Shown here: one piece after another, positions 11,228-34,407 of the stretch
Layout: each line of letters begins with the position of its first letter
How positions within the stretch are numbered: the stretch's first letter is position 1
Source: a bacterium
GTDB taxonomy: Bacteria > Actinomycetota > Acidimicrobiia > Acidimicrobiales > CATQHL01
DNA: 42,377 nt
Reading direction: 5' to 3'
Assembly: GCA_026708055.1 (NCBI GenBank)
Contig: JAPOVS010000050.1
Span: 1 to 42,377, forward strand
Notes under the pieces: generated by a model
Databases searched by the model: none
The model's input: the letters and a program-made list of their open reading frames with translations, nothing else
What the model was told of the DNA's origin: nothing
Made by a program: the position numbers and the translations under genes

Positions 11228-11464
11228 GCCGCCATGTTCGCGCAACCCGCCCGCCCGATCGACAGGCGGCGCGGCGCGCGTGCCGTCCTCGGGTCGGCGG
11301 TCCGGTGCCCGCGGGCGGTGCCGCCGTGGAAGAACTAGTGTGCCTCCGTCACAGAACGGAGGCCGGCCCCCGCGCGCCGCACCCAAAGTCGGCTCGGAGG
11401 GTCCTGCTCTCGTTCGCTTGTGAGCGTTGTTGACAGGTCATCGCACGATCCAAGGGGGACAGAG

Positions 11465-13489
11465 ATGACGGGAACAAAGCATTGGACACGACTCTTGGCG
11501 ATCGGGGTCGTCCTCTCCTTGATCCTCGCGGCGTGCGCCGCCGAGGACACGGGCGAGACGGACGCGGCGCGCGCCGAGGCTGCGGCAGCCCAGGCGGCCG
11601 CCGATGCGGCTGAGGCGGCGGCGCAGGCCGCGGAGGCCGAGGCCGAGCAGGCCAGGGCGGAGGCCGAGCTGGCGGCGGCGCAGGCCGCGGAGGACGAGGC
11701 CGCGGTCGCCGAGGCCGAAGCCGCGCTCGCCGAGGCCGAGGCACAGGCGGCGGCAGCGGCTGAAGCCGCCGAAGCGGCCGCCGCGGCCGCGGAGGCTGAA
11801 GCGGCGGAGGCGATAGCCGAGGCTGAACTGGCGGCAGCCCGGGCTGCCGAGGACGAGGCAGCCGTCGCTGAAGCGGAAGCCGCGCTGGCCCAGGCGCAGG
11901 CCACAGCCGATGCGGCCCAGCAGGCTGCGGAAGAGGCGCAGGCCCAGGTCCAAGCGGCGCGGGCCGAGACCGAAGCGGCGCAGGCCGAAGCGGCTGCGGC
12001 GCTGGCCGCCGCCGAGGAGGCCGCGGCTGCTGCGGGCATCGACCTCGACAACGTGATCATCAGCACGCCCAGCCTCGTGGCGCAGGCGGACTACGCCAGG
12101 GCTCCCTACGTGGCGCCCGCGCATGCCGCCGGCCTGCTGGCCTTCGGTGGCTACCTGTATCGCTATGACCCGCAGGGTGACTACGTCCCGGACCTGGCGA
12201 CGGACTTCCCGGAGTTCTCCGAGGACGGCCTGACGATGACCGTGACGCTGCGCGAGGGGCTCGTCTACTCCGACGGCACGCCGGTCGTGGCCCAGGACGC
12301 CGTCGTGACATTGCAGCGCGCCCGGGACGAGGGACCGTTCGGTGCCCAGATGGCGTCGTTCGAGTCCGCCGAGGCCGTCGACGATCACACGATCGTCTAC
12401 ACCCTGAACGAGCCGTTCAGCTGCCTCAACAACCAGATCGTCTGCAGCGAGAACATGCCCCTGCACCCGCACGAGCAGGTGCTCGCCGATCCGGAGGGGT
12501 ACTTCGCCGAGCCGGTCAGCGCCACGCAATACGTGGTCTCGGACTGGGTGCCCGGCTCGCCGACGATGGTGCTCGAGGCCAACCCCAACTACTGGGCCGG
12601 CGAGGCGGTCATCAAGAAGCTGACGCTGGCGTCGGCGACCGACCCGATCTCGCGGCTGCTGCAGGTGACCACCGGGGCCGCGGCCATGGGCTTCGACATC
12701 CCGGCGTCGGTCCGCGCCGACCTGCCGGACGACGTCATCCAGATCGTCCACCCCATCGGCGGCACGTTCTGGTTCGTGATCCGAAGCGACGTCGAGGGAC
12801 CCCTGGGTGACGTGCGGGTACGCAAGGCCCTGTGCCTGGCGATGGACCGCGACGCCATCAACGAGAGGGCGTTCCTCGGGACCGCCGAGCCGGGCGGCTC
12901 GATCCTGTCGAGATACCGGAGCGAGTGGGAGTACGAGGACATCGTCCCGCTGGCCCGCGACGTGGCGGGCGCCCAGGCGCTCCTCGCCGAGGCCGGCTAT
13001 GCGGACGGCTTCTCGACGCCGTTGCAGACGATGGGCGCTCGTCCAGGCTGGACCGACGCCGCGACGATCCTGGCCGAGAACTGGGCCGACATCGGCGTCA
13101 CCGCCGAAGTGCAGCCCCTGGAGGACGCCATCATCATCGACAACATCATCAACCGGGCCTACGACGCCATGTGGATCGGGAGCGGTGGTCCCAACTTCTC
13201 GACCCTGCGGACCCTGTTCTACCCGGACAACTTCTGGTCCAACTCCGTCGCATTCGCCGATGATTCGGTGACGACCGCGTTCGATCAGTTGGCGGAGGCC
13301 ATGCCCAGGGGCGACATGGACGCCTCGCAGCGCCTGCAGACCGAGGTGCAGCGTCTGGCGCTCGACATCGGCGCCAACTACTGCCCCATGGGTGAGCGCG
13401 CCGTCCTCGTCGGCAGCCGCCTGTCGACGGACATCCTGGCGATGATCCCGGCTTCCCAGAACTTCTGGGTGGCGACCGAGAGCGGGTAG
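11465..13489 (+). CDS. Family-5 dipeptide/oligopeptide-binding lipoprotein with long Ala/Glu-rich stalk
   Basis: 674 residues from ATG 11465, with AAGGGGG at ~11452-11458 as Shine-Dalgarno. Residues 1-24 are a lipoprotein signal with lipobox LAAC (C24). Residues ~30-190 consist almost only of Ala, Glu, Gln, Asp and Arg in heptad-like order and should form a long alpha-helical coiled coil; it contains a ~60-residue internal duplication (AEDEAAVAEAEAALA appears twice) whose codons have diverged. Residues ~192-674 are an SBP_bac_5 domain (AFGGYLYRYDP, TDFPEFSEDGLTMTVTLREG, FSDG-like YSDGTPVVAQDAV, LNEPFSC). The domain alone is a normal family length, so the stalk is an addition. It is the first gene of the importer that continues to 17401. 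The ligand is unknown. Confidence 0.85.
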   Translation: MTGTKHWTRLLAIGVVLSLILAACAAEDTGETDAARAEAAAAQAAADAAEAAAQAAEAEAEQARAEAELAAAQAAEDEAAVAEAEAALAEAEAQAAAAAEAAEAAAAAAEAEAAEAIAEAELAAARAAEDEAAVAEAEAALAQAQATADAAQQAAEEAQAQVQAARAETEAAQAEAAAALAAAEEAAAAAGIDLDNVIISTPSLVAQADYARAPYVAPAHAAGLLAFGGYLYRYDPQGDYVPDLATDFPEFSEDGLTMTVTLREGLVYSDGTPVVAQDAVVTLQRARDEGPFGAQMASFESAEAVDDHTIVYTLNEPFSCLNNQIVCSENMPLHPHEQVLADPEGYFAEPVSATQYVVSDWVPGSPTMVLEANPNYWAGEAVIKKLTLASATDPISRLLQVTTGAAAMGFDIPASVRADLPDDVIQIVHPIGGTFWFVIRSDVEGPLGDVRVRKALCLAMDRDAINERAFLGTAEPGGSILSRYRSEWEYEDIVPLARDVAGAQALLAEAGYADGFSTPLQTMGARPGWTDAATILAENWADIGVTAEVQPLEDAIIIDNIINRAYDAMWIGSGGPNFSTLRTLFYPDNFWSNSVAFADDSVTTAFDQLAEAMPRGDMDASQRLQTEVQRLALDIGANYCPMGERAVLVGSRLSTDILAMIPASQNFWVATESG

Positions 13490-13667: not shown

Positions 13668-14678
13668 GTGACGAACGAAGTGACGGGTTCCACGCCGGCG
13701 ACCGATGTCGTCGCCGCGGAGCCCTCAAAGCGCGACCGCGTGCTGGCGCTCATCGGGCGTCGGCTGGTGCGGGCGATCCTCGTGGCGTGGGGAGTCTCCC
13801 TGCTGGCTTTCGCCATCGTGCGTATCGTCCCGGGTGACCCGGTTGCGACGCTTCTCGGGGAGGAGGCCACGCCGGACCGCGTCGAGGTGCTGCGGGAGCG
13901 GCTCCATCTCGACGGGTCGGTCGTCGAGCAGTACGGCAGTTGGATGGGCGACGTCGTCAGGGGCGACCTGGGGCAGTCGCTCCAGTCCACGAGACCGGTG
14001 CTGGACACCATCGGCGATCGGTTGCCGATCAGCCTCTGGCTCGTCGGGTTGGGCATGGTGTTCGCGCTGATCCTGGCGATACCGCTGGGCGTGATCGGAG
14101 GCCTGACGCGCTCGAACTGGTACAAACAGGGTTTCGGTCTCGGTTCGGCGGCGCTGATCGCCACGCCGCCCTTCGTGACCGGGGTGTTGCTGCTCCTGGT
14201 TTTCGGCGTGAGGCTCCAGTGGTTACCTGTCGCCGGCTACGTCGACACGTTCCCGCAGAACCTGGAGTACCTGCTGCTGCCGGCCATCGCCATCGGCATC
14301 CCCGTCGGCATGATCTTCGCCATCGTCCTGCAGGAATCCATCCGCGAGACCAACTCCGAGGAGTTCGTGGAGACGGGGCTGGTCTGGGGGCTCGCCAAGC
14401 CGCAGTTCATCTGGCGCTACCTGCTGCGGCCCTCCATCGCGCCGGTGATCGGCCTCATGGGATACATCGTGGGCGCCAACCTGGCCGCAGCCGTGGTCGT
14501 GGAGACGGTCTTCAACCTCGAGGGCATCGGCACCTACCTGGTGCGGGCGGTGCTGGCGCGTGACTATCCCGTGGTACAGGGCACGCTGTTCACGTTCGGC
14601 TTCATCGTGGTCGTCGTGCACTTCTTGAGCGACACGGTGTCCGCGCTGATCGATCCTCGCGCCCGGACGCTGTCGTGA
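13668..14678 (+). CDS. Dipeptide/oligopeptide ABC importer permease (DppB type)
   Basis: 336 residues from GTG 13668. It has the standard DppB layout: a first membrane helix (~28-50), the extracellular region GDPVATLLGEEATPDRVEVLR and GDLGQSLQSTRPV, then five membrane helices, with the EAA-like loop (EEFVETGLVWGLAKPQFIWRY) contacting the ATPases. VVVETVFNLEGIGTYLVRAV near the end is diagnostic. Its last bases overlap the next permease by four (GTGA), so they are translated as a coupled pair. The ~50-residue N-terminal extension before the first helix is longer than usual and unstructured-looking. Confidence 0.9.
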   Translation: MTNEVTGSTPATDVVAAEPSKRDRVLALIGRRLVRAILVAWGVSLLAFAIVRIVPGDPVATLLGEEATPDRVEVLRERLHLDGSVVEQYGSWMGDVVRGDLGQSLQSTRPVLDTIGDRLPISLWLVGLGMVFALILAIPLGVIGGLTRSNWYKQGFGLGSAALIATPPFVTGVLLLLVFGVRLQWLPVAGYVDTFPQNLEYLLLPAIAIGIPVGMIFAIVLQESIRETNSEEFVETGLVWGLAKPQFIWRYLLRPSIAPVIGLMGYIVGANLAAAVVVETVFNLEGIGTYLVRAVLARDYPVVQGTLFTFGFIVVVVHFLSDTVSALIDPRARTLS

Positions 14679-15568
14679 CCTCGCTGGGTGACGCCGGGAC
14701 GCGGTCCGCCGGATCGGCGGCAGCGAGCGGCCTGCGCGGGCGACTCGTCGCAGGCTGGCGAGCCATGCCGCCGAGCATGAAGTTCGGCATCGCCATCATG
14801 CTCCTGATGATCATCCTGTCGATCGTCGTCCCGGCATTCAGCCCTTACGACACGCGCCGGGGCGGCCCCGACGCAAACCTGCCCCCCAGCGCCGAGTACT
14901 GGTTCGGGACCGATCATCTGGGGCGGGACGTGTTCGCACGCACCTTCGAGGCGGCGCGCATCGACATCATCCTGGCCGCGGCGGCGGTCTCGGTGCCGCT
15001 GCTGGTCGGCACGATCGTGGGCTCGATCATCGGCATCACCCGCAGCAGGCTGGTGCAGAACGCCGGGGACCTGGCCATCGAGGTCATCAACTCGTTCCCC
15101 ACGCTGATCATCGTGATCGCGCTCGTGGCGGCGTTCGGGCGGGGTACCAGGGGCATCCTGCTGGGTCTGTTCATCACGGCGTGGGCACGCTACGCCAAGG
15201 TGGCGCGCGCCCGGGCTCTGATCATCCGCGACATGGACTACCTGGAGGCCGGCCGCTGCCTGGGGTACAGCCGCGCCCGCATCCTGGGCCGTCACGTGGC
15301 GCCCAACGTGTTCCCACTCACGCTCGCCTACGCCGTCAGCGACTTCGTGGTCGTGATCCTGGCGGTTGCGGGTCTGTCGTTCCTGGGAGCCGGCGTCCAG
15401 CCGCCGACCCCTGAATGGGGTGCCATGCTGAACGACGCGCGCCTGCACATCTTCCGCGCCTGGTGGCCGGTGCTGTTCCCGGGAATCATGCTCTCGATCA
15501 CCGCCCTCGGCGTCTCGCTGATCGCCCAGGGGATTGGCCGGCGCGCCTCGGAGAACCTCGTCGGATGA
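14675..15568 (+). CDS. Dipeptide/oligopeptide ABC importer permease (DppC type)
   Basis: 297 residues from GTG 14675. DppC hallmarks are the N-terminal helix (FGIAIMLLMIILSIVVPAF), the segment PSAEYWFGTDHLGRDVFART, five further helices, the coupling loop (RDMDYLEAGRCLGYSRARILGRHVAPN) and the closing GLSFLGAGVQPPTPEWGAML. It pairs with the DppB-type gene overlapping by four bases and is followed 10 bases later by the first ATPase. It is a full-length, intact permease. Confidence 0.9.
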   Translation: MTSLGDAGTRSAGSAAASGLRGRLVAGWRAMPPSMKFGIAIMLLMIILSIVVPAFSPYDTRRGGPDANLPPSAEYWFGTDHLGRDVFARTFEAARIDIILAAAAVSVPLLVGTIVGSIIGITRSRLVQNAGDLAIEVINSFPTLIIVIALVAAFGRGTRGILLGLFITAWARYAKVARARALIIRDMDYLEAGRCLGYSRARILGRHVAPNVFPLTLAYAVSDFVVVILAVAGLSFLGAGVQPPTPEWGAMLNDARLHIFRAWWPVLFPGIMLSITALGVSLIAQGIGRRASENLVG

Positions 15569-15578
15569 GGATCGCGCC

Positions 15579-16622
15579 GTGCTGACGGTCGACGAACTCT
15601 CCATCGGGCTCCTCGGGCGGCGGGGCGAGACCATCCCCGTGATCGAGCGGGCCTGGCTCCACATCGGCGAGGGCGAGACCCTGGGCCTGGTGGGGGAGTC
15701 CGGATCGGGCAAGTCGATGCTCTGCCGGTCGCTCGTGGGAACGCTCTACCGGCACTCGGCCACGGTCACGGGCGGTTCGATCCTCTTCGAGGGGACCGAA
15801 CTCACCGGAGCCACCGATGCCGTGTGGCGGGGCATCCGCGGGCACCGGATCGCGTATGTGCCCCAGAGTTCGCTGGCGGGCATCAACCCGGTTCTCACGG
15901 TCGGCACGCAGCTCATGGCGCTCGTGCGGGCGGCCCGCAGCGATACCGGCGAGGACGTCTCGCCGCGCGCCCGCGTGCGCGAGCTCCTCGAACTGGTGGA
16001 GATCCCCCGGATCGATTCGGTGATGCACGAGCGCCCACACCAGCTCTCGGGCGGGATGCGACAGCGGGTGGTCATCGCCGGTGCGCTCGCCCGCAATCCC
16101 TCCCTGCTCATCGCTGATGAGCCCACGACGGCGCTGGACGTTCGCGTGCAGGCCCGCATCCTGGACCTGCTGCGCCGGCTCCGGGAGCAACTGGGAATGT
16201 CGCTGCTGCTGGTGTCCCACGATCTCGCGGTCGTGGAGGAGGTGTGCGACTCCATCGTGGTGCTCTATGCGGGCGCGGTGATGGAGTCGGGATCGCAGGA
16301 TCTGGTGCGGGAGCAATCCCGGCATCCCTACACGGCGGGACTCGTGGCGGCGGCGCACATGGAGCTGGCGGGCGGTTACGAGCCGATCCCCGGTGAGGCG
16401 CCCAGCGTCGGTGCCTGGCCGTCGGCCTGCCGCTTCCACCCGCGCTGCGGCCTCACACTGCGCCTCGGCGACGGTGTCCCGCACAGCCGCTGCTGCGAGG
16501 GTGCGCAGCCGCAGCCCACCGAAGTTGACGGGCGTCTCACGGCCTGCCTCTTCGCTTCGTCGATGGCCACCGAGGGGGCGCCGACGGTCGGGGCGCAGGT
16601 CGCCGAGGGGGAGGCGACGTGA
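15579..16622 (+). CDS. Dipeptide/oligopeptide ABC importer ATPase (DppD type)
   Basis: 347 residues from GTG 15579, chosen because GAGGA lies just upstream and it avoids overlapping the permease. Walker A GESGSGKS, Q-loop VPQSS, signature LSGGMRQRV, Walker B LLIADEPTTALD and the switch His in VSHDLAVVEE are all present. The C-terminal oligopeptide/dipeptide transporter extension with its Cys-containing motif (CRFHPRCG, then C at the end of the domain) is also there, which in relatives may bind a metal or cluster. The stop overlaps the next ATPase start (GTGA). It energises uptake together with the neighbouring 16619-17401 protein. Confidence 0.9.
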   Translation: MLTVDELSIGLLGRRGETIPVIERAWLHIGEGETLGLVGESGSGKSMLCRSLVGTLYRHSATVTGGSILFEGTELTGATDAVWRGIRGHRIAYVPQSSLAGINPVLTVGTQLMALVRAARSDTGEDVSPRARVRELLELVEIPRIDSVMHERPHQLSGGMRQRVVIAGALARNPSLLIADEPTTALDVRVQARILDLLRRLREQLGMSLLLVSHDLAVVEEVCDSIVVLYAGAVMESGSQDLVREQSRHPYTAGLVAAAHMELAGGYEPIPGEAPSVGAWPSACRFHPRCGLTLRLGDGVPHSRCCEGAQPQPTEVDGRLTACLFASSMATEGAPTVGAQVAEGEAT

Positions 16623-17401
16623 CCGGCAACGGCGCGGGACTTGCGGGCCACGACATCCGCGTGACCTTCGGGCGGGGCCACAACGCCTTCAATGCCGTGG
16701 AGGGTGCCGACATCGACGTGGCCGAGCGCGAGGTCGTCGGACTCGTGGGCGAGAGCGGGAGCGGCAAGACCACGCTCGGCAAGGTGCTGGCGCTACTGCA
16801 TCGGCCGACCCTCGGGGAGGTCAGCTACCGCGGCGAACCTCTCGAGATGCCCCGCGGCGGTGCCCGCAGCGAGGTGCGCGGGCAGGTGCAGATGATCTTC
16901 CAGGACCCGTACTCCAGCCTGAACCCCAAGCAGCGGGCGATTCACGCCGTGGCCGAGGTGTTCCAGGTCTGGCAAGGCGTGTCCCGATCGGCGGCCCGCG
17001 GCTCGGCGATGGCGCTGCTGCGCGAGGTCGGGATCAGCGAGGAGCAGGCGCGGCTGTTCCCTCAGAGCCTCTCCGGCGGGCAGCGCCAGCGGGTGAGCGT
17101 CGCCCGCGCCCTTGCCGTCGAGCCACGCATCCTGATCGCGGACGAGCCCACGTCGTCCATCGACCAGTCGGCGCAGGCGCAGCTGCTGGTGCTGCTCGGG
17201 CGGCTCCAGACCGAACGGGGTCTAGGAATCCTGCTCATCACCCACGACCTGCGCCTGGTCCGCAGCTTCGCCGACCGGATGTACGTGATGCGCCGCGGCG
17301 AGTTGGTCGAGAGCGGCCCCACGGACGATCTCTTCTCGCGCCCGCAACACCCCTACACCCAGGATCTGATCGACGCGGTCCCCGGCGGGATGTTCGGTTG
17401 A
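16619..17401 (+). CDS. Dipeptide/oligopeptide ABC importer ATPase (DppF type)
   Basis: 260 residues from GTG 16619. Walker A GESGSGKTT, QMIFQDPYSSLNPKQ, signature SLSGGQRQRVSV, Walker B ILIADEPTSSID and ITHDLRLV are intact. It is shorter than many DppF proteins because the C-terminal Cys-rich extension is missing; it ends PYTQDLIDAVPGGMFG. The last 92 bases (17304-17395) recur almost identically at 20007-20098 (one mismatch), and a more diverged copy lies at 21126-21200. The stop at 17401 is therefore the left boundary of an apparent insertion zone. Confidence 0.9.
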   Translation: MTGNGAGLAGHDIRVTFGRGHNAFNAVEGADIDVAEREVVGLVGESGSGKTTLGKVLALLHRPTLGEVSYRGEPLEMPRGGARSEVRGQVQMIFQDPYSSLNPKQRAIHAVAEVFQVWQGVSRSAARGSAMALLREVGISEEQARLFPQSLSGGQRQRVSVARALAVEPRILIADEPTSSIDQSAQAQLLVLLGRLQTERGLGILLITHDLRLVRSFADRMYVMRRGELVESGPTDDLFSRPQHPYTQDLIDAVPGGMFG

Positions 17402-30853: not shown

Positions 30854-32392
30854 ATGATTTCCAGACGTAGGAATCTCTGGCTGGCCGCCGCACTTGGGGT
30901 GGCGTTAGCTCTGGTGGCAAGTGCCTGTGCCGCGGATGACTCGGCCCAGGATGCAGCCGACGCGGCGATGGCCGAGGCCGGTGCCGCCCGCTCGGATGCT
31001 TCTGCGGCGATGTCCGAAGCACAGAGTGCTGGCTCGGCCGCTGCTGCCGGAGCGGCCGACGCTGCCGCGGCAGGTGCCGAGGCCAGTGCGGCGAGCGCGA
31101 CCGCAGACGCCGCCGCCGCCGCAGCCGATGCGGCGAGCGCCGAGGCGGCCGCGGCAAGCGCCGCCGCCGACGCAGCCGAGGCTGCCGCCGACCTCGCACT
31201 CGCGACCGCCGAGGGCAGCGAGGAAGCCGTGGCGGCCGCCGAAGCGGCCCTTGCCGACGCGCAGGCCGCAGCCGAGGCCGCCAGTGACGAGGCTGCTTCC
31301 GCGAGGGCAGAGGCCGCCGCCGCCCAGGCCGACGCCGAGGCCGCCCAGGCTGAGGCCGCCGCCGCCCAGGAAGAGGCCGCTGCTGCTCAGGCTGAGGCCG
31401 CCTCGGCTCGCGAGGAGGCGGCTACGGCTCGCGAGGAGGCGGCCGATGTGGCCCGCCACAACGTGAGGGCCATCGCGGGCGACTACGAGGCGGTCATCCG
31501 CCCCGCCACCCAGCGTTGGACGATCGGCCACGCCGACGGCCTTGCCGGCATCCCGTTCACCGACTCGGTCACCGACAGCATCTACGAGGTCGCCGACGCC
31601 ATGGGCGTGGACATCATCTTCTGCGACAACGCCTACGACCAGGAGAAGACCGTCGAGTGCGCCAACCTGATCGTGGCGCAGGAGGCCGACGGTGTGATCT
31701 TCGCCAACTGGATCGCCGGCACCGAGGAGCTGATCGCGGGCATCTACATCGACGGCGGTCTGCCCTGCATCACCTGGGACGGCCCGCATCCGGGTTGCAA
31801 GAACTTCGGTCCCGACAACTTCGAGGCCTCCGTCGAGGCTGGCCGCTACCTGGCGGGCTTCGCCCAGGAGCAGGGCTGGGATCCCGCCGAGACCGAACTG
31901 GTGGTCATCTGGACCCAGGGCGTGCAGGTCATGGGCGAGCGTCGCGACGGTGCGATCGCCGGCGTGCTGGAGTCCTTCCCCATCCCCGAGGAGAACATCC
32001 ACGTGGACATCCCGCACGCGGCACTCGACGACGTGTTCCCGCTGGTGACGGACTGGGCGACCGCCAACCCCGACGCCAAGAACGTGCTCTGCTTCGGCCA
32101 CAGCGACCAGCCCGGCGTGGACTGCGCCCTGGCCCTGGAGCAGGCCGGCTTCCTCGGCCGGGCCGCGGCGGCCAGCCTGGGTGCCTCCGACGAGGCGCTC
32201 GTGGACCTGCGCCAGCGCACCGACGAGGAGTCGGTCTTCAAGGCCACCATCTCGTTCTTCCCCGAGCGCTACGGGCAGTACCTGGTGCCGGCCGTGGTGG
32301 ACATGCTCGAGGGCCGGATCGTGCCCGACCGGGTCATCCCTGCGGTGGAGCCGGTAACCCGCGAGACCGTCCACGAGTTGTACCCCGAGTAG
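30854..32392 (+). CDS. Sugar-type periplasmic-binding lipoprotein with long Ala-rich stalk
   Basis: 512 residues from ATG 30854. Signal with lipobox VASAC (C25). Residues ~26-205 are an almost pure Ala/Glu/Asp/Ser/Gln stretch in heptad order (AEAAAAQ and SAREEAATAREEAA blocks), predicted to be a long coiled coil. Residues ~206-512 are a Peripla_BP_4 ribose/galactose-type domain (FTDSVTDSIYEVADAMGVDI, CANLIVAQEADGVIF, CITWDGPHPG, SFFPERYGQYLVPAVVDML). The SBP fold is unrelated to that of the family-5 protein at 11465-13489, yet the lipobox-stalk-domain plan is the same. It is the first gene of an importer with 32568-33356 and 33379-34407. Confidence 0.85.
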   Translation: MISRRRNLWLAAALGVALALVASACAADDSAQDAADAAMAEAGAARSDASAAMSEAQSAGSAAAAGAADAAAAGAEASAASATADAAAAAADAASAEAAAASAAADAAEAAADLALATAEGSEEAVAAAEAALADAQAAAEAASDEAASARAEAAAAQADAEAAQAEAAAAQEEAAAAQAEAASAREEAATAREEAADVARHNVRAIAGDYEAVIRPATQRWTIGHADGLAGIPFTDSVTDSIYEVADAMGVDIIFCDNAYDQEKTVECANLIVAQEADGVIFANWIAGTEELIAGIYIDGGLPCITWDGPHPGCKNFGPDNFEASVEAGRYLAGFAQEQGWDPAETELVVIWTQGVQVMGERRDGAIAGVLESFPIPEENIHVDIPHAALDDVFPLVTDWATANPDAKNVLCFGHSDQPGVDCALALEQAGFLGRAAAASLGASDEALVDLRQRTDEESVFKATISFFPERYGQYLVPAVVDMLEGRIVPDRVIPAVEPVTRETVHELYPE

Positions 32393-32445: not shown

Positions 32446-32567
32446 AACGCCCGGTCGTGCGCCAGTTGCCCTTCCTTGAGCGGAGGTGGCCATGATCGAC
32501 TCGATAGTCCGCACGAATCCGCTGGCGTGATGACCCGTCCCTGTTCGCCGACCTACGGGGAGTCGTG

Positions 32568-33356
32568 ATGCCCCCACTTCTCAGCATGATGGGCGTGTCG
32601 AAGGCCTTCGGTCACGTCGTGGCCCTCGCCGGGGTCGACCTCGAGATCCAACCCGGCGAGGTGATCGGCCTGCTGGGTGACAACGGCGCCGGCAAGTCGA
32701 CGCTTATCAAGATCCTCTCCGGCGTCTACTACGCCGATGAGGGGAGCTTCACCCGCAACGGCGAGCCGGTCACGATCACCGATCCCAACGACGCCATGGC
32801 CCTCGGCATCGCCACGGTGTACCAGGATCTCTCGCTCGTTGAGACGCGCCCGGTGGCCCACAACATCTACCTCGGGAGGGAGCCGCGACGTTGGGGCATC
32901 GTGTTGAACCGCCGCAAGATGGAGCGTGACGCCACCGAGTTGCTGGAGCGCCTCAACATCAGGCTTCCCTCGGTACGCGTCGACGTGGGCGTGCTCTCGG
33001 GGGGCCAGCGCCAGGCGGTGGCCATCTCCCGGGCCGTGGCCCAGGGCGGCGACATCCTGCTGCTCGACGAGCCGACCGCCTCGCTCGGCGTGGAGCAGAC
33101 CGCCCAGGTACACGACCTCGTCGTCGACATGAAGTCCCACGGCAGCGCCATCGTCCTCATCACCCACGACCTCAGCGACATCCTCGACATCGCCGACCGG
33201 ATCGTCGTGCTGCGCCAGGGTCGGCTGTGGGCCGACACGCCCTCTGCGGCCACGACCCAGACGGAGGTCATCGGCTGGATCACCGGGGCGCTGCCGTCGC
33301 AGTTCGCCAACGGCACCTCGACCAACGGCACCTCGACCAACGGAGGGTCGTCGTGA
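32568..33356 (+). CDS. Sugar ABC importer ATPase, single nucleotide-binding domain
   Basis: 262 residues from ATG 32568 (a GTG one codon earlier is possible; GGGGAG lies upstream). Walker A GDNGAGKST, Q-loop VYQDLSL, signature LSGGQRQAVAISRAVAQ, Walker B ILLLDEPTASLG and ITHDLSD are intact. Classical sugar importers of this type have two fused ATPase domains (~500 residues); this one has a single domain, like FrcA-type proteins, and presumably works as a homodimer. The C-terminus is a low-complexity Asn-Gly-Thr-Ser tail coded by a 15-base tandem repeat. The permease follows 22 bases later. Confidence 0.85.
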   Translation: MPPLLSMMGVSKAFGHVVALAGVDLEIQPGEVIGLLGDNGAGKSTLIKILSGVYYADEGSFTRNGEPVTITDPNDAMALGIATVYQDLSLVETRPVAHNIYLGREPRRWGIVLNRRKMERDATELLERLNIRLPSVRVDVGVLSGGQRQAVAISRAVAQGGDILLLDEPTASLGVEQTAQVHDLVVDMKSHGSAIVLITHDLSDILDIADRIVVLRQGRLWADTPSAATTQTEVIGWITGALPSQFANGTSTNGTSTNGGSS

Positions 33357-33378: not shown

Positions 33379-34407
33379 ATGGCCGGCGGCTTGAGTTCCC
33401 GGATCCTGGACTGGGGCATGAGTGGCCTGCTCGTGTCGCCCGAGGACCGCCGGCACCCCTGGTGGCCGTTCAGGCGCCTCAACGACTGGACGATCCCCGG
33501 TCTGCTCGTCGCGCTCGCGGGCCTGTGCATCTACTCGTGGCAGCGCTCTCCCTACTTCTTCACCGTCAACAACTTCGTGAACATCGGCGAGGCCCTCTCC
33601 ATCCGGGGACTCATGGCCGTCGGACTCACGGTGCTGCTGATCAGCGGCGGCCTCGACCTGTCGATAGCCGCCGTGGCCGCGTTCACCGGGATGTTCGCCG
33701 CCATGATGATCAACGCCGGCGTCAACGGCGCCGTCTCGGGACTGGTCGCCCTTGCGTGCGCCGCCACCATGGGGCTCATCAACGCCTTCATCATCGTGCG
33801 GCTCCGGGTCAACCCGATCATCGCCACACTCGGCACCCTCCTGCTGTTCCGGGGGCTCGCCTTCGTGGTCAGCGAGGGCGACAACATCGTCATCGGCGTC
33901 AACGCCTGGAGCACCTTCGGTCGGGGCGAGGCGCTGGGCATCAAGGTGACGCTGTGGGTGTTCGCCGGGGTGCTGGTGTTCGGCATGTGGTTCATGCGCC
34001 ACTCGTTCATCGGGAACAACCTCTATGCCATCGGCGGCAACCCCTCGGCCTGCCGGAATGTGGGCATGAAGGTGGACCGCATCCGCATGTGGTCGTACGT
34101 GGCGATGGCCATCCTGTCGGGCATCGCCGGCATCGCCTTGATGTCACGGGGTGGGACCGCCCAACCGGCCGCCTTCGAGGGGGCCGAATTGGAGATCATC
34201 ACCGCGGTGTTCCTCGGGGGTGTGGCCCTCACCGGAGGCCGAGGCAGCCTGCTGGGCACGTTCCTGGGCCTGATCATCATCGGTGTCATCACCAACAGCT
34301 TCGTTCTCACCAACGTGCCGATCTACTGGCAGATGGTCGTCCGGGGCATCATCCTGATCCTGGCCGTCTCCATCGACAGCATCCGAAGAGGCGGCGGCTA
34401 CCGGTGA
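33379..34407 (+). CDS. Sugar ABC importer permease (RbsC type)
   Basis: 342 residues from ATG 33379, with a GGAG-containing segment before it. After a ~45-residue hydrophilic N-terminus it shows 8-10 membrane helices and the typical motifs GLTVLLISGGLDLSIAAVAAFTG, RLRVNPIIATLGTLLLFRGL, NPSACRNVGMKVDRIRM, GGTAQPAAFEGAELEIITAV and FLGGVALTGGRGSLLGTFLG. This is a complete BPD_transp_2 permease and closes the sugar-importer operon that begins at 30854. The sugar is unknown. Confidence 0.9.
   Translation: MAGGLSSRILDWGMSGLLVSPEDRRHPWWPFRRLNDWTIPGLLVALAGLCIYSWQRSPYFFTVNNFVNIGEALSIRGLMAVGLTVLLISGGLDLSIAAVAAFTGMFAAMMINAGVNGAVSGLVALACAATMGLINAFIIVRLRVNPIIATLGTLLLFRGLAFVVSEGDNIVIGVNAWSTFGRGEALGIKVTLWVFAGVLVFGMWFMRHSFIGNNLYAIGGNPSACRNVGMKVDRIRMWSYVAMAILSGIAGIALMSRGGTAQPAAFEGAELEIITAVFLGGVALTGGRGSLLGTFLGLIIIGVITNSFVLTNVPIYWQMVVRGIILILAVSIDSIRRGGGYR

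Follow-up and report, generated by a model that had tools for sequence, protein, structure and literature searches.

The gene at positions 30854-32392 of the window (the whole 42,377-nucleotide stretch of DNA analyzed here) raises the question of why a lipoprotein of an ABC importer should carry a long Ala-rich segment between its lipid anchor and its binding domain, and whether the similar segment on an unrelated binding protein of the same window shares its origin. A previous sequence-only reading of this DNA had proposed a stalk that was acquired or evolved twice. We followed up this proposal with profile searches, structure prediction, and comparisons among related genomes.

P0001 and the sequence of its stalk

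In overall plan, P0001 is an ordinary substrate-binding protein (SBP) lipoprotein of an ABC importer. The features of its locus are as follows.

30854-32392, + strand: P0001 open reading frame, 512 amino acids, lipoprotein, protein start MISRRRNLWLAAALGVALALVASAC
30854-30928, + strand: signal peptide and lipobox (VASA-Cys25), from sequence
30926-31213, + strand: stalk N-arm, mature residues 1-96, acidic leader and Ala-rich helix (AlphaFold2 helix; Ala in heptad core positions)
31214-31219, + strand: hinge Gly97-Ser98 (mature numbering), consensus A-T-A-[ES]-G-[NS], conserved throughout the stalk set and breaking the helix in both models
31220-31474, + strand: stalk C-arm, mature residues 99-183, AAAAQAE-type heptads (heptad analysis, AlphaFold2 models, 21-nt DNA periodicity)
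31481-32392, + strand: type I periplasmic-binding-protein domain, RbsB/arabinose-binding-protein-like (Foldseek ~1e-15; PF00532 weak)
32565-33356, + strand: ABC transporter ATPase, directly downstream of P0001 (PF00005, 4.5e-30)
33379-34407, + strand: sugar-type ABC permease (BPD_transp_2), after the ATPase (PF02653, 6e-37)

The VASAC lipobox, as read from the sequence, predicts a lipoprotein, and the Ala-rich segment of about 180 residues previously noticed between lipobox and domain is real: it extends from Cys25 to about 31474 (30926-31474, ~183 residues; 55% Ala, 12% Glu, 8% Asp, and 8% Ser), is also rich in Gln, and nearly lacks Lys and Pro. The domain had been called a sugar-binding Peripla_BP_4 protein. 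It matched no Pfam family above the cut-off and gave no match to PF13407 (Peripla_BP_4) at E<=5, the nearest family being PF00532 (Peripla_BP_1) at 19.6 bits, under the family cut-off. The AlphaFold2 model of P0001, compared with the PDB by Foldseek, found ribose- and arabinose-binding proteins (best E, 1.2e-15; TM on the target mostly 0.7-0.8), consistent with an RbsB-like bilobed fold, and the cognate ABC ATPase and permease (PF00005 and PF02653, 32565-34407) form the neighborhood of a sugar SBP. The label of a sugar-binding-type SBP stands because of these structure matches and because the ABC ATPase and permease are the next genes, while the family name has to be dropped. A Pfam search with both stalks of the window (P0001 and P0002, described below) returned no family at E<=10, Lpp/alanine-zipper lipoproteins included.

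Ala-rich segments could grow neutrally in a GC-rich genome by slippage of GCN repeats, and the C-arm does show a 21-nt and 42-nt tandem periodicity. However, comparison of P0001 with two congeners that have full-length stalks gave a dN/dS of 0.04-0.08 in the arms and 0.12-0.15 in the domain, the Ala codons are mixed, GC3 in the stalk lies below that of the domain (76% versus 95%), and the hinge and heptad register are conserved. Because dN/dS is low in the arms and the register is held over more than 90 sequences, chance composition is unlikely; the slippage explanation is already contradicted by the apparent selection on the protein sequence and is hardly credible, and these sequence comparisons strongly support purifying selection on the stalk. 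The same comparison gave a dS of 0.44-0.89 in the stalk and 0.19-0.26 in the domain, a synonymous divergence two to four times higher in the stalk (30926-31474) than in the domain (31481-32389). Exchange between stalk copies is a candidate explanation for this excess, and either such exchange or avoidance of DNA repeats possibly accounts for it and for the lower GC3.

Distribution and origin of the stalks

The window encodes another stalked protein, an SBP_bac_5 lipoprotein, with the following features at its locus.

11420-13489, + strand: P0002, SBP_bac_5 lipoprotein
11534-12055, + strand: Ala-rich stalk with AAEDE in place of the Gly hinge, the motif occurring twice (sequence; weaker signature)
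12050-13489, + strand: SBP_bac_5 domain (PF00496, 4e-64)
13668-17401, + strand: two BPD_transp_1 permeases and two oligopeptide-type ATPases, a complete Opp/Dpp-type operon

One stalk design is thus present on two nonhomologous SBP families, P0001 and P0002, as had been noted. The census of further stalks is based on HMM and Pfam searches. A profile built from five stalks gave 18 matches, representing 17 distinct proteins, in the 3.9 Mb genome that contains the window; all 17 look like SBP lipoproteins, and one more stalk seems to be borne by another protein (L208). The P0002 stalk matches the stalk HMM, but P0002 itself sat in the seed. By these searches the genome encodes at least 17 stalked lipoproteins. 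A 15-row stalk profile, used for the wider search, found 5-27 matches in each of seven other genomes of the family and 25 in a further one, G002, so stalks are neither confined to the two proteins of the window nor absent from relatives. With the same profile, no stalk was found in other genera in the order sample (79 genomes); the class sample (395 genomes) gave two weak matches, and the phylum sample (396 genomes) gave no match except the genome of the window itself. One weak match (L125) was rejected as a member of the stalk module, being a coiled-coil protein without an SBP domain or lipobox, and the other (L126), an SBP_bac_5-like protein whose stalk is divergent and hinged at EGD, was kept as a look-alike only. 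Save for this divergent look-alike, the module was not found in the approximately 870 genomes sampled from order, class, and phylum outside the family, an absence bounded by the sensitivity of the HMM, which already matches the sister genus G001 at just 1e-15 to 1e-5.

About 98 stalks were extracted from nine genomes of the family, with a lipobox filter applied to every stalked protein, and they fall into 16 SBP clusters (E < 1e-10). The cluster representatives bearing the module belong to SBP_bac_1/8, SBP_bac_5, Peripla_BP_4, Peripla_BP_6, NMT1, OpuAC, and Bmp, that is, at least seven Pfam families in addition to the Peripla_BP_1-like P0001; the representative of cluster SF7 matched no Pfam family. 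It is strongly supported that, among the proteins found, the module is limited to SBPs. The named congeners are metagenome-assembled genomes, and their sponge origin is a reading of isolate names such as COS4_bin_33, SB0661_bin_55, and IRC4_bin_37.

The central signature LAQATAEGN-x-EAVAAAEAALADAQAAA occurs in nearly all of these stalks, and in most of them the core residues around the hinge approximate AAADLAQATAEGN-x-EAVAAAEAALADAQAAA. Comparing full-length HMM scores with those of phase-preserving shuffles gave no information on long stalks, whose repeats produce multiple hits, and a hinge-anchored core test was therefore used instead (44-residue core, hinge residues excluded, leave-one-superfamily-out, 2000 phase-preserving shuffles). 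No shuffle reached the score in 21 of 24 representatives, nor did any for P0001, in which both the central A-T-A-[ES]-G-[NS] hinge and the flanking core are present. The exceptions were two single proteins (11 and 34 of 2000) and the representative of the P0002 cluster, in which AAEDE replaces the Gly hinge (3 of 2000), and the test is slightly optimistic, chiefly for stalks without Gly, as its anchor was picked by best match.

Moreover, the DNA of the module reaches 82% identity between unrelated SBPs. In the best pair, OpuAC-type L124 and Bmp-type L143, the match (82% over 540 bases, bases 77 to 616) begins 6 codons before the Cys codon, at offset 96 in both, and stops where the C-arm ends, at 615 in both, a pattern that looks like transfer of a unit reaching from lipobox to helix end. 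Spacers have been replaced among orthologs. Those of P0001 outside the genus, which share 65-70% identity with the mature protein, carry short Thr/Pro/Glu linkers; one congener (L040) has a different, shorter stalk of ~100 residues on a 95% identical domain, and an SBP of the sister genus (L041) has an Ala stalk in the place taken by Pro-rich linkers in its relatives of this genus.

Convergence, with Ala-rich stalks arising independently in two SBP families, as the earlier proposal of two acquisitions implied, would suit the missing Gly hinge of P0002 and the different composition of the two window stalks (Ser 8% in P0001 versus 0% in P0002, Glu 12% versus 19%). That difference in composition is genuine, but as an argument against a common origin of the whole set it gives way to the position-specific signature present in nearly all clusters, to the DNA-level transfer bounded by lipobox and arm end, and to the near absence of stalks from other genera sampled in the order, class, and phylum. 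Convergence is, on these sequence grounds, already contradicted for most of the set and very improbable as a general explanation, and a common origin of most of the stalks is strongly supported. The case for a common origin is weaker for the P0002 stalk than for the rest, and for this protein alone convergence could still apply. The P0002 stalk may also fold differently from the hinged stalks, because the Gly is missing and its measured arms differ in length (105 and 60). We propose that lipobox, Ala-rich N-arm, Gly-[Asn/Ser] hinge, and Ala-rich C-arm together form a mobile lipoprotein module, which recombination or duplication has carried to many unrelated SBPs of ABC importers within a single family of apparently sponge-associated Acidimicrobiia.

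In the sister genus G001, the stalks of L041, L108, L115, L122, and L184 are divergent, and each has a break of its own (Gly-Asn, Gly-Ser, or Asp-Asn). The module may predate the split from this genus, because some of the G001 stalks sit on orthologous-looking SBPs. A separate stalk type with an S-G-D hinge (N-arm 69-79, C-arm 46-53) occurs on Peripla_BP_4 proteins (L014/L026, L054, L058, L059, and L062) and may be a hairpin of independent or earlier origin.

Other SBPs of the genome have Pro-rich or Thr/Glu-rich linkers instead of the stalk. PAPEPPPP-type Pro-rich repeats of up to ~150 residues run from lipobox to domain in L001, L002, L004, L008, L016, L214, L219, L227, and L229, and in this genome such repeats are a second kind of SBP spacer. 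We also observed tandem SBPs of ~790-850 residues with two SBP domains in a single open reading frame (L006/L007, L010/L011, L044, and L198), of which the following were located.

L006/L007: genome G000, C27:104196-106031
L010/L011: genome G000, C56:57954-59858
L044: genome G003, C17:32034-34055

Within each genome, the DNA of the two tandem domains shows 100% identity over 786-903 bases, and between genomes it differs. The two-domain arrangement, with concerted evolution of its copies, looks real because the sequence at the junction is unlike that at the end, and its copy number may be collapsed by assembly. Other kinds of single-ORF tandem SBPs occur in relatives and other lineages (L060 in G002, L064 in G008, and L192-L195).

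Hairpin or straight stalk

The stalk had been read as a ~180-residue Ala-rich helix. In the AlphaFold2 model of whole P0001 it is predicted to form two helices (5-96 and 99-183) that break at Gly97-Ser98 with a pLDDT of 90-94 there, and the model of the stalk alone has a mean pLDDT of 90.9, with 97-99 around the hinge; these are monomer predictions, and AlphaFold2, when given five to twelve related rows for a helix of low complexity, may favor hairpins. Structural comparison of the stalk model returned mostly antiparallel hairpins centered on the hinge, from colicins, a chain of the SteB-RipA complex, MexA-type adaptors, and VIPP1 (for example, 2ysu, with an rmsd of 2.0 over 117 residues). Since the Foldseek E-values of the stalk alone are near 1 and a Z of ~12 is not above the level of common helical arrangements, these matches read out the topology and do not prove a specific relationship.

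The lengths of N-arm and C-arm are correlated across 22 orthogroups (r = 0.87, p = 2e-7), in part through exchange of whole modules between short and long types, a part that is not independent evidence. Distances from Cys to the hinge Gly include 61, 75, 82, 89, 96, and 103, and within one SBP_bac_1 group a Cys-to-Gly distance of 89 or 61 goes with a Gly-to-first-strand distance of 88-89 or 61-62. Where orthologs differ in length, the step is a multiple of 7 in 13 of 22 cases for the N-arm (p = 1.4e-6 against 1/7) and in 15 of 40 for the C-arm, where some groups include Pro-linker variation, and the 21-nt DNA repeat can contribute to such steps. In both arms the heptad phase keeps a fixed relation to the hinge. 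Ala makes up 92% of core phase 1 and 95% of core phase 5 in the N-arm; in the C-arm the corresponding shares are 98% and 75%, the last with a further 23% LIVM, mostly near the hinge.

A straight coiled-coil or single-helix stalk that raises the domain by ~27 nm, across a thick wall or an outer layer, would agree with Ala in the a and d positions and with a heptad phase that continues unbroken across the hinge, and the long Pro-rich linkers of similar residue number on other SBPs of the genome suggest that distance matters. Taken alone, the register is compatible with a continuous coil. Nevertheless, a Gly-[Asn/Ser] hinge lies near the middle of nearly all stalks, the helix break is predicted with the highest confidence at that point, the arm lengths are matched, and the structural comparison returned hairpin templates. 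We therefore regard a straight stalk as unlikely and the earlier suggestion of a rod reaching through the envelope as probably wrong; judging from these models and statistics, the stalk is probably a hairpin, which would be antiparallel and helical, with a core made almost entirely of Ala.

Possible roles and relation to known systems

Because both arms are of matched length, anchor and binding domain would lie at the same end, and the hairpin would stand 9-15 nm long beside the binding domain. The module would act as a rigid, strongly acidic spacer that holds the SBP near the membrane and its permease and would replace a disordered linker, not lift the domain 27 nm outwards, and on the predicted fold this is its most likely role. 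To the reading as a whole, a mobile module that spread over SBPs, folds as a hairpin, and serves as a rigid acidic spacer near the membrane, we assign a probability of roughly 0.7. The main alternative on function, a less likely one that also fits the hairpin fold, is that hairpins pair into four-helix bundles and so cluster SBPs of different specificity around transporters. The core common to all stalks, the occurrence of the module on SBPs only, and the extra faces of the N-arm (phase 3, 76% Ala; phase 2, 28% LIVM) are in line with such bundling, while the strong net negative charge and the few basic residues of the stalks speak against it. More doubtful is a lineage-specific universal plug, in which one hairpin common to a whole set of importers joins unrelated SBPs in mixed membrane arrays or jack-knifes open reversibly; the jack-knife variant, if true, would mean that the domain is moved between membrane and wall.

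The antiparallel pair of Ala-rich helices called the Alacoil, with ROP and ferritin types, was reportedly described by Gernert et al. in 1995, and its helices are spaced 7.5-8.5 angstrom apart. The putative hairpin resembles it in sequence pattern, with Ala in the core positions of the heptads, and in the predicted antiparallel course of its helices: Ala occupies every seventh interface position (phases 1 and 5), and the antiparallel pairing comes from the model, through the predicted helix break and hairpin-type structural matches. In contrast to the Alacoil, the stalk is much longer, with ~61-103 residues per arm, and has Ala at both a and d. Lpp-type and alanine-zipper lipoproteins form short parallel oligomers, and TolA domain II is a Lys/Ala-rich helix; all share with the stalk that they are Ala-rich envelope helices anchored by lipid or in the membrane, whereas the stalk is acidic, almost without Lys, hinged, and outside any Pfam family. 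The receptor-binding domains of E colicins, MexA-type adaptors, the SteB-RipA chain, and VIPP1 are alike in hairpin topology and differ in function and location.

Closer in plan are the lipid-anchored SBPs of Gram-positive bacteria and the covalently linked domains of OpuA and GlnPQ, which likewise combine lipobox, spacer, and domain with adjoining permease and ATPase genes. An 11-residue linker has been described in OpuA, and SBP linkers limit how freely the domain diffuses near the transporter (PMC11065425). Unlike such flexible linkers, the stalk is conserved, probably folded, 100-190 residues long, common to unrelated SBPs, and apparently exchanged as a unit. The open-access literature yielded nothing on Ala-rich or hairpin SBP stalks or on a shared folded stalk module, and as far as we found, such a module seems undescribed.

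Our findings suggest that the spacer of an SBP, usually seen as a passive disordered linker, can be structured, selected, and transferable, here across at least seven SBP families. The almost all-Ala hairpin could serve as a naturally occurring model of antiparallel Ala coils of great length. Moreover, the natural ortholog pairs of this family, with short or long stalks and with or without them, make the roles of tether length and rigidity in ABC import testable.
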